Shown in pieces: positions 27,213 through 34,028 of a stretch of DNA of 64,000 nt. A program made the translations under genes and the position numbers. Location of the stretch: positions 4,157,899 to 4,221,898 of the forward strand of contig NC_087377.1 in the NCBI RefSeq assembly GCF_963675165.1, read 5' to 3'. The stretch comes from Halichondria panicea (taxonomy: Eukaryota > Porifera > Demospongiae > Suberitida > Halichondriidae). Below the pieces are notes generated by a model, which ran no database searches, was not told the DNA's origin, and saw only the letters and a program-made list of their open reading frames with translations. Each line of letters starts with the position of its first letter. Position 1 is the stretch's first letter.

Positions 27213-27361
27213 AAATTATGTACTTTATGTCTTTTACCACTGCCGCGCCATATCCATAGGGTATGTATCTCCTCCCCATGTTAAAGGATTCTGATGGACA
27301 CTTTGGCTCTTCACAGGGTGATGGATCTCCTCCTCTTAGAAGAATTGAAGGACAATTCGGC
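27213..27361 (+). repeat. Right pseudo-LTR of the Penelope-like element
   Basis: Counterpart of 24,982-25,132. It again carries 'gtgatggatctcctcctct' and the start of the ORF, as expected when tandem copies of such an element share a boundary. Confidence 0.8.
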
Positions 27362-27439
27362 CCTACAGAGGAATGTGCGAATGACAGTAAGTTATCTGCT
27401 GCAACGTACGTACGTATGTAACATTGTCTCTGTGTTTCC

Positions 27440-27582
27440 AATGATGAGGTACACTCTCTCACCGTTTCGACTGATGGATCGCAACGGCGGCAACCAACTC
27501 CCTCACCGTTTCGACTGGTGGTGGATCTCCCATCTGTGCAACGACGGCAAAAGTATACAAATGAACTTCTGCTCCTCTAGAG
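27440..27582 (+). mobile_element. LINE fragment, piece 1 of 3 (5' of the insertions)
   Basis: The frame ending WISHLCNDGKSIQMNFCSS at 27,580 continues at 33,559 as EPATSLINKDLG once the inserted element and one copy of the 8-base duplication are removed. This gives a continuous non-LTR reverse-transcriptase C-terminal segment. It contains two 'accgtttcgactg(a/g)tgg' words 50 bases apart, also present at 36,490 at the start of a second LINE fragment. Confidence 0.6.
27575..27582. repeat. Target-site duplication, left copy
   Basis: CTCTAGAG, identical to 33,553-33,560. It fits the nTnnnnAn pattern seen with hAT-type 8-bp duplications. Because the octamer is its own reverse complement, the inverted repeats appear eight bases longer (76 bp) if it is counted with them. 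Confidence 0.8.
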
Positions 27583-27650
27583 TAGACTCGCAAGCCGCCA
27601 CTGTTGCACGCGAACAGTAGACTGGTCAAACTCCGTGTAGAGACTCGTGT
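27583..27650 (+). repeat. Left terminal inverted repeat
   Basis: 68 bases, exact inverse of 33,485-33,552. The 100 bases between it and the helicase ATG (27,651-27,749) presumably hold the helicase promoter. No TATA box is evident. Confidence 0.9.
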
Positions 27651-27749
27651 TGCACAGTCAGCATATCAGATAAGATGCTAAGTATGTGATAAGTGGCTGC
27701 GGCTTTCGTGACGTTTATTTATTATCGTGACGCAAAGTATAAGCAAAAG

Positions 27750-29128
27750 ATGGCGGAGTGTAAGCTACTCACAATAAGTAAAGCTATTGAAGAAAGTGCA
27801 AAGTGTATTGGATTTTCATACCTCAAAAAAGAACAGCAAGAAGCTATGGAACACTTTGTGAATGGAAAAGACACGTTTGTTTCATTACCCACTGGCTACG
27901 GAAAATCTGTTATTTATGCTGCTCTCCCTGGAGCCTTTAATAGAATTAAAGGTATGTTTATTCAGAGCTAGCTAGCTGCATAAGTAATTTTCCTGTTCCA
28001 GGTTCAACAGGCAGCATTGTTGTGTGCATCAGCCCGCTCACTTCCTTGATGATGGACCAGGTGTCGAATTTTCAAGCTAGAGGCGTTAAAACAGATTTCA
28101 TTGGTGACAGTCAGACCGATCCATCTGTCAGAAAGAAAGTATTGCGTGGAGAGCTTGAACTTGTATATACAACCCCAGAAAGCCTAATCAACAATTGTGT
28201 TTACCGGGAAATGCTCATGTCACCTGTGTATAAAGAGAACTTACGGGGACTAGTGGTGGACGAGGCTCATTGCGTGAAAACATGGGGAGATGAATTTAGA
28301 ACTACATTTGCTGAAATTGGAACACTTCGAAGCTTAGTCTCAAGTAAAGTAAATGTTATGGCCCTCACAGCAACTGCAACAACAACCACATACCATATTG
28401 TTATTGAGCGATTGTCAATGGTTGATACTGTGCTGGTGGCACAAGTTCCTTTCAGAGATAATATCAGTTACCATGTTAAACGAAGAATAGACAGTGACAC
28501 GCTTTCAACATTATTTAGTCAAGAATTGAAGAAGCTTCGAAATTCATTTCCTAAAACTCTTATATATGTCAGGACATACACAGATTGCTACGGTTTGTAT
28601 ATGCTACTAAAGAAAAAGCTTGGTAGGCACTTCACAGAGCCAGAGGGTTATCCAAATATGTATGGTTATCGGCTTATAGACATGTTTAATCGAGCTATGA
28701 CTCCTGCTAAAAAAGAAGAAGTTGTTAAGTGTTTCTGTGAAAGAGACACTACTCTACGTGTCGTTATTGCAACTACTGCGTTTGGCCTAGGAATTGATTG
28801 CCCAGATATCCGGCAGGTGATTCATTGGGGAATTCCTGTATCTCTAGAAGAGTATGTACAAGAAAGTGGACAATGTGGTCGTGATGGAAAACAGTCTAAA
28901 TCCATTTTATATCTCGGAAAGACTACAGTACATGCTTCTAAGGCAGTCCTAAACTATCTGTCAAACTCTGATAAATGTAGACGTAGGTTACTATTCAGAG
29001 AATTTTTACTGTACAAGGAGGATAATGTTAAAGCAAGAGGTTGTGAATGTTGTGATGTTTGTGCACTTTCATGTTTTTGTTCCAATTGTTTGTCACTCAA
29101 TGATGTAACAGATGATGATTATGATTGA
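27750..29128 (+). CDS. RecQ-like DEAH-box DNA helicase of the transposon
   Basis: An ATP-dependent 3'-5' DNA unwinding enzyme by family. Exons 27,750-27,951 and 28,002-29,128 join across a 50-bp intron (GTATGT...TTCCAG) to give 442 residues. Motifs in order: I LPTGYGKS (46-53), Ia SPLTSLMMDQV, II DEAHC (154-158), III ALTATAT, IV KTLIYVRTYTD, V VIATTAFGLGID, VI ESGQCGRDGK. The C-terminus has CRRRLLFREF then CECCDVC, equivalent to the RecQ zinc-binding subdomain. No winged-helix RQC or HRDC domain follows, so it is a core-only RecQ. Motif VI has Cys where cellular enzymes usually have Ala (QCGRDG), but the second Arg is kept. The ATG chosen is the first in frame; the open frame extends upstream without another ATG. 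It is convergent with the DUF6589 gene, with stops 28 bases apart. It probably assists transposition or repair of the donor site. Confidence 0.85.
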
Positions 29129-29156
29129 AATTATAATTGAAATGCCAAAAGAATTT

Positions 29157-32100
29157 TCACATACCAGAAAAAGTTGTTTTAATTTTATCAATAAGTTCAT
29201 TGGTTGTAATTCTTTCAAGAATACCTCTTTTCTTCTTGAAAGATACGTACCTCTCTATTCGATGTGGGTTGTAAGTGAATGTTTTTACTTCTCTTAGTAC
29301 CTTTACAACATGTGTAAGGTCGTCCCCAAAACTGCGGAAATTATGTCGACCAGACTGTACGTGCCCTACTGTCTGCTTCTCAAAAACATTGCACACGTGG
29401 TGTAATGTTGCAATTGCCTTTCCGGCTTTGACTATTTTAGAAGAGCTGACATTGGCACCCATATTTCTAATACAAGTCTTCAAACGTCGATTGAGGTGCT
29501 CCATATGTAAATCACATGGTATATTGGCACCAGGAACTCCTTGCGTATTTATGCATCGACTCCACAACAGCTGTGTCTTCTGCCTCTCTGAAAATGTGCG
29601 ATAATACTGATCGAGTACTATAATAGCCTCTTTGGCATAGTTTCTATGGCCTGTTACTTTAAAAATAATAAGCAATAATTTCCAATAGCGAAGAATCCTT
29701 TTACCGTCACCTTCTTTAACTGCGTCATGGAACCCATGCCATATCAAACCAATTGTTAAGAGATCCGTTCCGTAAAGGTACACGTTATCATTGCATTCGC
29801 TTGGCAATTTAGACAAGGACTCTAGATCTGGTATCCGAAGAAATGTTGAGATTATTCTTGATGTGAGTTCGGAGATATCTTTTGTTTGAGACAGTTGTTG
29901 GAGAGTATTGGCAGCCTCGACAACGTGTGAGTGTACCAGTAGCAACATAAAATCTTCACATGAATTCATGTTTTTTTGTGGATCTGATGGTACATTTGTC
30001 CTATGTATCACATTTCTGAGATTGTACATAGTGCCTTTCTCTCCCGATGATTTAGTATCATAGAATGCTCCCCAGATAACCTGTACATGTGGATGCATGT
30101 GTATATAGCAAGAACGTATACATAGGGGACGTACAATATCATGCATTCATATAATAATTATACCAATTTAAGGTGACTACCGTAGAGCGGACATTTTCGA
30201 AGGGCTTAATTAGCTGTTTATTTCGTGGGTTTATAGCAATCCTACGTACACAAAAATTATAATAATAATATACACGATAATTGTTCTTTAATTAGAATTA
30301 TTTGCTAAAAACATGCTAAGAAAAGGCGTGACTTCCATGAATGTTTTTAGAGGCCTTGCAATCTTAATGTGCCTGGAAAGTTTCGCTTTATACAGTATCT
30401 AACAATACGCGGAAACTTCTTGATAATTATATATACGTCATTATGTTTTGTGTATAATACATTATAATTTACGGAACAGTTTTTCTCTTAGGAACGTACC
30501 TTCATTAAAGTCATTCTGCTGTGCCAATCCTCAATTACCGGAGCAATTCCTTCAAACCTGTCTGCAGGGTCACTATGTGTGTCTCTGAGAGCTTGGGCCC
30601 CTCTAATCCGTGCTACTGTGAGCTGGTCTCCTCCAAACAAAGTTTTCAAAAACATCGTGTTATTCACTAAAACTGCATCGCCATTAGGTAGTGTCATCAA
30701 ACCCTCTGACGCCTCTGTCGGGACTCTATCCATGTAAGTGTCCAAGATCTGACTCATCTCATCCAACTTGTTCTCGTTTAGAAGAAGCACTCCAAATGGT
30801 ACCTAAAATGGTGACAACATAATTTATACGGTATAATTAATATATATAACTCTGTACTCTTCATTTACATAATACTCACTGTTTTGGACTTAGACGACAT
30901 CTCCTTTTTGTATTCGCTGGCTATATGTCTTGAAATGTGTTTGGCATCATTCTTAAATTCTCCCAAGTAGCACACAATGATACTGAAGATTAATTATAAT
31001 AATACAACCACGCAATGAAATATTTCGATCTTACCGAGAAACAAGAATCCCAAGTTCTTCTTTCAGCTGCTGCACCTCTTCTTGGGAAAGTTTAAAGTCA
31101 TTGTAATCAGGATCACGTTCAGTAGGGGGGATATCGGATACTTTTGACATGTCTACACGATCAAGTGCTGCATACCCATGAAAATAATGTAGAGATTGAC
31201 CTTTATCGTTGTGTCGTTGATATCTAGGTCTTATATTTTTGTCGATGTTATCACCCACAAACTTAAATCCGGACCATGCTGTACAGTGAGAGTATTGGGT
31301 TGAATTATCATGCTGTGATGAGTGTTGGGATGAGATGGAATCATCATGTTGAGGATTTCGGCTGGAATCGTCTTGCTGTGAGTTGGTATCATTCTATAAT
31401 TATAGTGGACAACATTGGAGAGACAATACATTACCATTACCATTGACGAATCCTCTTCTGTCGTATGGTCATGAAAGTCATCTTCTGAGATCGGGCTAAA
31501 TGGAGGAGGTTCAATATCATCCTCTACTTCATCACCATCATTTCTGGTGGAATCTTGCTGTGATGATTGTTGGGTGTAATCATCTTGTTGTGGGTTTCGG
31601 CTGGAATCATCTTGCTGTGAGTTAGTATCATTCTATATAGAGGAATAATAATTATATATAGACATGCAGACAACACATTACCATTGACAATGTCGCATCG
31701 TCATAAAAGTCCTCTTCTGAGATCGGGCTAAATGGAGGAGGTTCAATATCATCTCCTATCTCATCTTCATCAAATGGTGTGAACACATACATTGGTTCAG
31801 GAAGAGCCTGTGTGAAACACTATGACACAGCACAAACTTAATACACAGTAACAGAACATACGTTAGCTGGACGTTGTATCAGAGGTCGTAGCTCATCACA
31901 CCATGTCTGGATCTCTATGTCATGGTCTTCAGTGATCGTTTCGATGATGTTCATTGTCCCTTGGTAGGACATGCATATCCTCAATGGACGAAAGTTGGAA
32001 AAAACCTAATGTGAGTATACATATATAAAGCAGATGGTTACACTGTATATAATTATGCTCACCTGTTTTGCTGTTCCATTCCCATACATCATCACAGATA

Positions 32101-33206
32101 TTGCCCTTTGTACTAGACACATTCGCTGGTGCCTGGCTTGCAAAAGCACAGATGCAACAAAACAGAGCATGGGAACTTTGTTAGTGGGTTTAGGGACAAT
32201 TTGTTTTAGGAGTGCCATCAAAGTGGGAACATTTTTTTGCAACTCAAGGCTAACAGTTTCCCAACTAAAATGCTTTACTGCTTCACAAGTATCTCTAAGG
32301 ATCGAGTCATGATTATCTGAGCATATTGTGGTGAGTTCCTGTTTTATTTTCCTGGACAACTGAGACAAAACATTCTTTAACTTCGAAGGCGAACGGATTA
32401 ACTGAGAAGAAATTGACGTGAAACTCTTGCGAGTAACATTTTTAATAACTCTCTTCCTTGATGGAGTGTTAACTTTGAATTTCCGTGTATATTTCTTATA
32501 TGCTACATGGACCTACGTACGTATATAAATACAAGTATAAATTAGTAGGCTGATCAACCAAATAGCTAACCTCAACATTCGGAGATGCTGATTGTTGGTT
32601 TCTGCAACTGGAACTGGATGTCTCTGATGTGGGCCCTTCACACCCAGACTGAGTTGAAATGCTTGCCTCATCACCCTGACACTCCTCCTGGATACAAAGT
32701 ACAACATCATAATTATGTTCATCACACTGTTAGCGCATGTACGCCTTTAAACTAATATAAACCTGCTGAAATGAATCTGACATCTGAATTTCGGTCTGCC
32801 CTGACTGACTACTTGACATCTGAGTGTTGGGATGGCTAGCTCCAAGCATAGCAGAGCAGACACTCTTGCTTCGGGGACCTCTTGCAGTTGAATGATCTAG
32901 AGTCCTTTTTGATCCAGGTCTAATCAAGGCTAGAGAAGACACTTTGTCCAATACTTCAGCTCTTAGAGACAGCAATATTTCCTCACAGTTTCTAATGTTT
33001 ACCAATATCTTATCGCAACTATGACAAATTAATGCTGATGGGTCGTTTGTTTCCTTAAAGCAACTGAGAGGGGCATCAGCAATATCTTGGATAACATCCC
33101 TGACAATTGTGCAGCCACTTCCATACAGTTTCTTCCTCCTGCGATGGTCTTTAGGAAGGAGTGACTTGCAGAGACAACATAGTGAGGTCGGTAGTTGAGG
33201 CTCCAT
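29157..33206 (-). CDS. DUF6589 protein, probable transposase of the element (10 exons)
   Basis: Exons on minus: 33206-32763, 32687-32571, 32512-32063, 32005-31862, 31807-31682, 31632-31441, 31393-31035, 30982-30880, 30802-30500, 30080-29157. All have GT-AG junctions and all phases agree, giving 1,053 residues. The N-terminus has C10-x2-C13 and C61-x2-C64, a zinc-finger-like pair likely used for DNA binding. The middle (exons 5-7) is Asp/Glu/Ser/Gln-rich and internally repeated. The C-terminal half is the DUF6589 domain: VGDNID (about 537-542), LFGGDQLT with its Asp near 704, then RIRGAQALRDTHSDPADR, IEDWHSRM and, in the last exon, YWKLLLIIFKVTGHRNYAKE and DLHMEHLNRRLK. The conserved acidic residues in VGDNID and GGDQLT are good candidates for catalysis; this is inference. 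The ATG at 33,206 is the first in frame. 278 bases lie between it and the right TIR. Confidence 0.85.
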
Positions 33207-33312
33207 CTGAGGCCTTCTTTGTTAATAGGTCTTAGACTAAACTGCAGTATACTATCTGATAATAGCGATGCGAGTTCAAGTACGACTTGACAACTGTTAA
33301 TTGGTAGCTAAG

Positions 33313-33351
33313 TAGCCTCGATTCCAGGTAATCGGCCTTGAATCGAGGCTA
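33313..33351. mobile_element. 39-bp miniature foldback inserted in the transposon
   Basis: It starts TAGCCTCGATT and ends AATCGAGGCTA, the same ends as the 355-bp element at 22,458-22,812. It is flanked on both sides by GTAGCTAAG (33,304-33,312 and 33,352-33,360), a 9-base direct repeat that looks like a target duplication. It lies between the DUF6589 start codon and the right TIR, where the promoter of that gene should be. Confidence 0.7.
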
Positions 33352-33484
33352 GTAGCTAAGGTAATAATTATGCATCATGTGCCTTCTGACGTCACAATAT
33401 TACTATCCACAATCATGTGGCATGTTTGTGGTAACCGCATGCGGTCTAGCCACTTGAGTTGCCACAAATATCGTGGCAAACGTT

Positions 33485-33552
33485 ACACGAGTCTCTACAC
33501 GGAGTTTGACCAGTCTACTGTTCGCGTGCAACAGTGGCGGCTTGCGAGTCTA
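33485..33552 (-). repeat. Right terminal inverted repeat
   Basis: Exact inverse of 27,583-27,650 over 68 bases. Both arms carry ACTGTTGCACGCGAACAGT, an internal palindrome with arms ACTGTT and AACAGT that could serve as a transposase binding site. Confidence 0.9.
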
Positions 33553-33680
33553 CTCTAGAGAACCTGCCACATCTCTGATAAACAAAGATCTTGGACTTTT
33601 GGATCTGAAATGGGAGGCCCACTACAACTCTATATCAGCTAAAGCCTACAAGGTGTTAGGCCTTCTGCTTTTTCGTCTAC
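33553..33680 (+). mobile_element. LINE fragment, piece 2 of 3
   Basis: Encodes EPATSLINKDLGLLDLKWEA then HYNSISAKAYKVLGLL in frame with piece 1. This is the RT-to-C-terminal region of jockey/CR1-type LINEs (KDLGVL..S..W..H......KA...LGLL). It includes the second CTCTAGAG (33,553-33,560) and ends at the TA that flanks the Tc1-like element. Confidence 0.7.
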
Positions 33681-33815
33681 TACAGCTGTTTGCATAGACC
33701 TTGCAAATGCAAAATACACTGTGTATAATACACTGTGTATAACCACTAAGTAGTGACAAACCACAAAGATGAACCACAAAGAATCACATGAGCTCATGTA
33801 CAGGCCATGTGATGA

Positions 33816-34028
33816 ATGTTTGCTGAATCCATCCAGACTCTGCATCCAGATCACAAGAAATCAGAAATGGCCTACTCCTATCCTTACACTCATCCAAGCC
33901 TGAATTATGTGTATCCACAGGCAGCTCCTCATCCAGGTTTTGCTGTTGGAGCAATGAATCCTGTAACTACAGGTGTTGCTGCTACAACCAACCAGTCAGC
34001 ACAATCTGTTGGCATATCATATCCGTGA
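33816..34028 (+). CDS. Possible first exon of the accessory gene
   Basis: An ATG-started open frame of 70 codons encodes a Tyr/Pro-rich, low-complexity stretch (YSYPYTHPSLNYVYPQAA) and then a Thr/Ala/Gln-rich part. A GTAAGT donor at 34,052 lies beyond its stop, so joining to the 34,162 exon would need a different phase. Treat as tentative. Confidence 0.25.
   Translation: MFAESIQTLHPDHKKSEMAYSYPYTHPSLNYVYPQAAPHPGFAVGAMNPVTTGVAATTNQSAQSVGISYP

Follow-up and report, generated by a model that had tools for sequence, protein, structure and literature searches.

Does the element at positions 27583-33552 of this 64,000-nt stretch of Halichondria panicea DNA (the window), in which a RecQ-like helicase gene is paired with a gene of the DUF6589 family, constitute an undescribed mobile system, as a first-pass annotation had proposed, or does it belong to a lineage that is already in print? 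Comparison of the element (5,970 bp; Table 1) with its relatives in the genome confirms that it is real, mobile and almost intact.

Table 1. Features of the element, numbered by position in the window.
Feature	Positions	Strand	Basis
Left target-site duplication CTCTAGAG, 8 bp, palindromic	27575-27582		Once in four paralogous empty sites, last base C
Left terminal inverted repeat, 68 bp, starts TAGACTCGC	27583-27650	+	Inverted-repeat comparison
RecQ-like helicase exon 1, Walker A LPTGYGKS	27750-27951	+	Gene model, Pfam, motif alignment
RecQ-like helicase exon 2: DEAH box, motifs III-VI, Cys-rich end	28002-29128	+	Gene model, Pfam, NCBIfam, PDB sequence search
CAA (Gln) codon at first Arg position of motif VI, GQCGRD	28871-28873	+	Motif alignment
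DUF6589 (putative transposase) exon 10, contains E946 in MEHLNR; acceptor 30080	29157-30080	-	Splice model, alignment
DUF6589 exon 9, contains D710 in GGDQLT and D743 in DWH	30500-30802	-	Splice model, alignment
DUF6589 exon 8	30880-30982	-	Splice model
DUF6589 exon 7, contains D545 in VGDNID	31035-31393	-	Splice model, alignment
DUF6589 exon 6, acidic linker, repeated segments common to exons 5 and 7	31435-31632	-	Splice model
DUF6589 exon 5, linker	31682-31819	-	Splice model
DUF6589 exon 4	31862-32005	-	Splice model
DUF6589 exon 3	32063-32512	-	Splice model; tblastn matches in several related loci
DUF6589 exon 2	32571-32687	-	Splice model
DUF6589 exon 1, paired CxxC motifs near the N terminus, resembling a zinc finger by eye only	32763-33206	-	Splice model
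Right terminal inverted repeat, 68 bp, exactly equal to left repeat	33485-33552	-	Inverted-repeat comparison
Right target-site duplication CTCTAGAG	33553-33560		Window sequence and empty-site comparison

Ends, target duplications and genomic copies

Terminal inverted repeats at both ends and a flanking 8-bp duplication delimit the element. An inverted-repeat computation gives 76 bp for the repeats in the window, versus a real length of 68 bp, since the flanking palindrome CTCTAGAG prolongs the repeat; it also renders repeat and duplication ambiguous when judged from the window copy alone. Assignment of CTCTAGAG to a 76-bp repeat was ruled out, since other genomic copies begin with TAG, fixing the end of the element at TAGACTCGC, and since the octamer is single in empty sites. 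The identical 68-bp repeats of the first-pass annotation are thus confirmed. For the empty-site check, six places of the flanking repeat were fetched, four of which (on contigs C1, C9, C3 and C2) are clean and carry the octamer once; L056 and L057 were left out of the comparison, their flanks lying hundreds of bases or more apart. The four empty sites read CTCCTCTAGACAACCTG, with one of them shorter by one base, and the eighth base of the octamer is C in all four and G in both window copies; based on this difference and the missing base, we regard them as paralogues and not as the exact ancestral site. The insertion in the window duplicated 8 bp, as had been annotated and as the single octamer of the empty sites bears out, but this is a minority outcome for the family, in which the duplication is usually 9 bp.

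The element sits within a dispersed repeat (flanks at window positions 27275-27574 and 33561-33860). The translated right flank resembles, by eye only, the C-terminal region of a reverse transcriptase protein of the LINE type, and 29 matches to this flank among those listed, 84-86% identical, are spread over ∼1.2 Mb of contig C7 (C7:1840647-3078599).

The search for further copies with the same ends, suggested at first pass, located the first 21 bases of the terminal repeat at 233 sites of the 131-Mb genome (≤1 mismatch), and the reversed control at none. Among the places listed, many ends are paired ∼290 bp apart, while others lie much closer together or form short arrays. In 20 short copies of 287-294 bp, which diverge on average by 2.5% from their majority sequence, 39 of the 40 ends read TAGACTCGCA and one reads TAAACTCGCA. 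Tabulation of target duplications, likewise suggested at first pass, yielded exactly 9 bp in 16 of the 18 independent short copies, 8 bp in one and none in one (two of the 20 were dropped, their duplication repeating that of another copy). These ∼290-bp copies would be deletion derivatives of a near relative of the window element that were moved in trans.

At the larger, helicase-type loci fetched for their ends (n = 14; L021-L033 and L037), exact 9-bp duplications are present in nine, whose ends begin with TAG. Helicase–DUF6589 pairs lying outside repeat-bounded units had been named beforehand as an argument against mobility: terminal repeats were found at ten of the 14 loci (at L030 without a duplication), but not at L023-L026, i.e., four of the 13 RecQ-matching loci that were fetched, where decayed ends, ends beyond the fetched stretch, or immobile pairs may be encountered. 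Base counts over 25 duplications are symmetrised by construction and stand without a control, and no target motif is claimed. Within a sister family, to which at least six of the DUF6589 and RecQ exon matches belong, copies L021 and L022 are 99.94% identical (5,349 bp, 3 mismatches) and occupy different targets, with the duplications TCCACAAAC and CTATGATAT, which argues for recent activity of that family; L027 and L028 (99.8% identical) also lie in different targets. Locus L037 (2851-6011) holds a 3.2-kb unit with part of a DUF6589 gene, TAGCCTCGA ends and a 9-bp duplication. No relatives were confirmed in viral and prokaryotic contigs, and PF20231 has a match in none of the 14 control genomes.

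The RecQ-like and DUF6589 genes

The RecQ-like gene has the two exons annotated at first pass and encodes 442 residues free of stops. Its product matches DEAD (2.1e-25) and Helicase_C (1.6e-13) in Pfam, and the RecQ family model TIGR00614 is matched by exon 2 on its own (1.3e-56), with 192.3 bits falling below the cut-off of 219.8; in a sequence search of the PDB, exon 2 matches WRN (5.4e-34) and other RecQ structures. The SF2 RecQ core motifs are present, and the helicase core resembles by sequence those of cellular RecQ proteins (WRN, BLM, RECQ1/5 and bacterial RecQ), from which the window protein differs in that Pfam detects neither RQC nor HRDC, that its RecQ_Zn_bind match is below cut-off (9.5e-4), and that its motif VI, GQCGRD, is deviant. 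At all 13 other loci the motif VI Arg is kept, with GRAGRD or GRSGRD at 12 and GRAGRG at one. A RecQ fragment 83% identical to that of the window is located at C4:3730409.

The Arg residues of motif VI contact the ATP γ-phosphate in RecQ and BLM. Because Gln takes the place of the usual first Arg of this motif in the window copy, its helicase may be weak or dead, and activity is not assured even with an open frame. Hence, the description of the element as apparently intact holds for its open frames and identical terminal repeats, but is to be qualified for the helicase.

The DUF6589 gene is convergent to the RecQ-like gene, the gene ends being 28 bp apart (29128 and 29157), and runs on the minus strand from 33206 to 29157. 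The ten exons and open frame annotated at first pass are retained, with GT-AG junctions throughout, and the length of the protein is corrected from 1,053 to 1,059 residues. Pfam, in which DUF6589 is a family of unknown function, assigns the domain at 2.4e-51; the scan employed a splice model in which introns 1 and 2 were incorrect, both lying away from the DUF6589 match. NCBIfam gave no match for exon 10, PDB sequence searches with DUF6589 gave no relevant match, and DUF6589 is named in no paper of the literature searched. Across exons 5-7 (window positions 31336-31772), segments of 82 and 63 nt are repeated at 88% and 90% likeness, 232-239 bp apart.

Alignment of nine helicase-type proteins and two proteins of a sibling type (see below) reveals that D545 (GDN), D710 (GDQ or GDY) and D743-W-H745 do not vary among the 11, and that E946 (MEHLNR) is invariant in nine of nine helicase-type proteins, the Glu being one column off in the two sibling-type ones. 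D545, D710 and E946 are putative DDD/E catalytic residues of the RNase-H-like fold that was proposed at first pass. The invariance of D545 and D710, along with the many copies exhibiting terminal repeats and target duplications, supports the first-pass proposal of DUF6589 as the likely transposase.

The window copy itself may nonetheless be dead or captured by the host, with an impaired helicase and no mobility, a state which we consider possible although unlikely, and which is compatible with the explanation of the lineage preferred below. The Gln in motif VI points in this direction, and so does the finding of only one full-length DUF6589 copy of the window family, the next best of the 65 candidates (65 scored) being 52-53% identical. 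Moreover, the fetched short copies differ from the window element at a fixed position of the terminal repeat, and the one short copy compared shares 132 and 127 bp with the ends of the element at only 88%. However, both frames are open, the terminal repeats are identical and the junctions are GT-AG, while a position inside a dispersed repeat does not suggest a host gene.

Pairing of helicase and DUF6589 and the proposed mechanism

With the final exon of the DUF6589 gene as query, 55 matches were obtained (65 of 65 candidates scored) and merged into 45 clusters; the RecQ exon yielded at least 128 matches (110 of 248 candidates scored), merged into 87 clusters. A RecQ match lies tail to tail within 5 kb in 30 of the 45 DUF6589 clusters, as compared with 0.3 expected under uniform placement; in 14 clusters a RecQ match is absent over this distance, and in one it is arranged differently. 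Pairs may have been missed, since 110 of the 248 RecQ candidates were scored. Ten aligned DUF6589 last exons range from 53% down to 32% identity to that of the window, and the convergent order is kept in families with helicases ∼29-58% identical to the window's in the aligned stretches. Helicase motifs I, V and VI align at 13 of 13 loci, and motifs II and III at 12 each. Because the pairing recurs across such diverged families, we take RecQ to be a regular component of the lineage and not accidental cargo.

The conserved order and motifs make it quite unlikely that the RecQ gene is a passenger without a role in transposition. The substituted motif VI of the window helicase would fit a passenger, as would the 57 of 87 RecQ clusters (from 110 of 248 candidates scored) that have no DUF6589 partner, and two repeat-bounded RecQ-like units without a DUF6589 match (L032:1260-3373, 2,114 bp; L033:2096-4189, 2,094 bp), which are 97% alike, are flanked by 9-bp duplications, and contain stops in the aligned stretches when read without introns modelled. 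The unpaired clusters may comprise host RecQ genes as well as helicase-only derivatives. Further unpaired RecQ matches with scores similar to those of L032 and L033 occur across the genome.

Taken together, we assign a probability of about 0.87 to the reading that the element is an autonomous-looking AcademH member of the Academ superfamily, with DUF6589 as its transposase and the RecQ-like gene as a standing part. We propose that the DUF6589 protein, as a DDE/D transposase, would bind the terminal repeats starting with TAG, excise the element and integrate it elsewhere, the stagger at the target being usually 9 bp (here 8 bp). The RecQ-like helicase would most likely work at the ends by DNA unwinding or remodelling, or act while donor and target gaps are repaired.

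A sibling type of DUF6589 element (L034, L040 and L041; C9 and C14) is present in the same 131-Mb genome. Five copies of this type, the ends of which are CAGT...ACTG, were seen via a subterminal sequence, and a single 1,732-aa open frame in L034 matches DUF6589 (1e-13). All three copies with both ends found carry 4-bp duplications (GAAC, TGAA and TAAT); in two of the five the right end was not found. With regard to a nuclease, Pfam and NCBIfam gave only DUF6589 and a CXC match below cut-off, and the PDB search gave no relevant match beyond a weak CXC one. An XPG-like nuclease could not be confirmed, blastp against an XPG_I-bearing frame giving E 0.68 at best. XPG_I itself is matched six times along ∼115 kb of a single contig, the open frames concerned being 588-601 aa long (L045 at C13:3752339; C13:3769611-3866203). 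Of the three copies of the sibling type with both ends found, two are located within ∼0.4 and 2.7 kb of a helicase-type RecQ–DUF6589 pair (C3:3626450-3635614; C14:4789923-4801114).

It may be speculated that the helicase helps to set the stagger, so that DUF6589 along with RecQ would yield 9 bp and the other type, without an internal RecQ match, 4 bp, though we hold this to be rather improbable. That an accessory enzyme is linked to duplication length was already suggested in the available portion of PMC10045372, while testing it with two types from a single genome is new here. If true, the helicase would belong to the strand-transfer machinery as an active component, and elements with a helicase alone would retain it since it is helpful to their own copying. 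A genome with both types and recently active sister copies represents a test bed for the role of transposon-encoded RecQ.

Comparison with known systems

The AcademH lineage of the Academ superfamily was reportedly described by Kojima in 2020 (Mob DNA 11:15). According to the available text of PMC10045372, AcademH encodes a helicase and generates duplications of 9 or 10 bp, AcademX encodes a nuclease and generates 3 or 4 bp, and helicase versus nuclease is related to duplication length. The accessible part of PMC10799480 attributes DEAD and Helicase_C to the helicases of AcademH, KolobokH or Helitron, and Academ is placed among the DDD/E superfamilies in those of PMC9587614 and PMC10294476; the accessible part of PMC3985635 makes no mention of Academ.

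Like AcademH as portrayed in these excerpts, the window element pairs a helicase with a transposase and belongs to a family with 9-bp duplications, the 8 bp of the window copy being a difference; the likeness is one of description, in that DUF6589 and a RecQ-type helicase were not met in the accessible accounts of AcademH. To AcademX it is linked by the DUF6589 common to it and the 4-bp sibling type, but it has a helicase and a long stagger, and neither the 3- or 4-bp duplication nor the nuclease in place of a helicase. We infer that DUF6589 is the Academ transposase mainly because the two types reproduce the duplication lengths of AcademH and AcademX, an assignment made by matching traits. 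A Pfam family without a name is thereby tied to a known transposon superfamily by anatomy, that is, by ends, duplications, helicase partner and sibling type.

The element might instead belong to a helicase-encoding lineage outside Academ, either an unnamed superfamily or one akin to Kolobok, in which RecQ was gained independently. In the portion of PMC9587614 available, KolobokH of fungi carries a RecQ helicase and a rhodophyte Kolobok likewise encodes RecQ, so that KolobokH resembles the window element as a DDD/E transposon with such a helicase; moreover, Academ membership was assigned by matching traits, for a family of unassigned function in Pfam that no paper of the literature searched names. 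However, Kolobok duplications are, in the same source, 4 bp long and TTAA-specific, while window-type elements duplicate 9 bp without a fixed sequence, a target-site difference on which Kolobok was rejected, and the printed duplication lengths of both AcademH and AcademX recur with the two DUF6589 types of this genome. An origin outside Academ is hence highly unlikely, and membership in AcademH is preferred. The first-pass claim of an undescribed system is not sustained: a helicase along with 9-10 bp duplications is the AcademH description in print (PMC10045372 and PMC10799480, as far as their available text extends), which excludes a wholly new system, and RecQ is, in the portion of PMC9587614 cited above, also a component of KolobokH. 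The window element is a new family of an already described lineage, not a new kind of mobile element.
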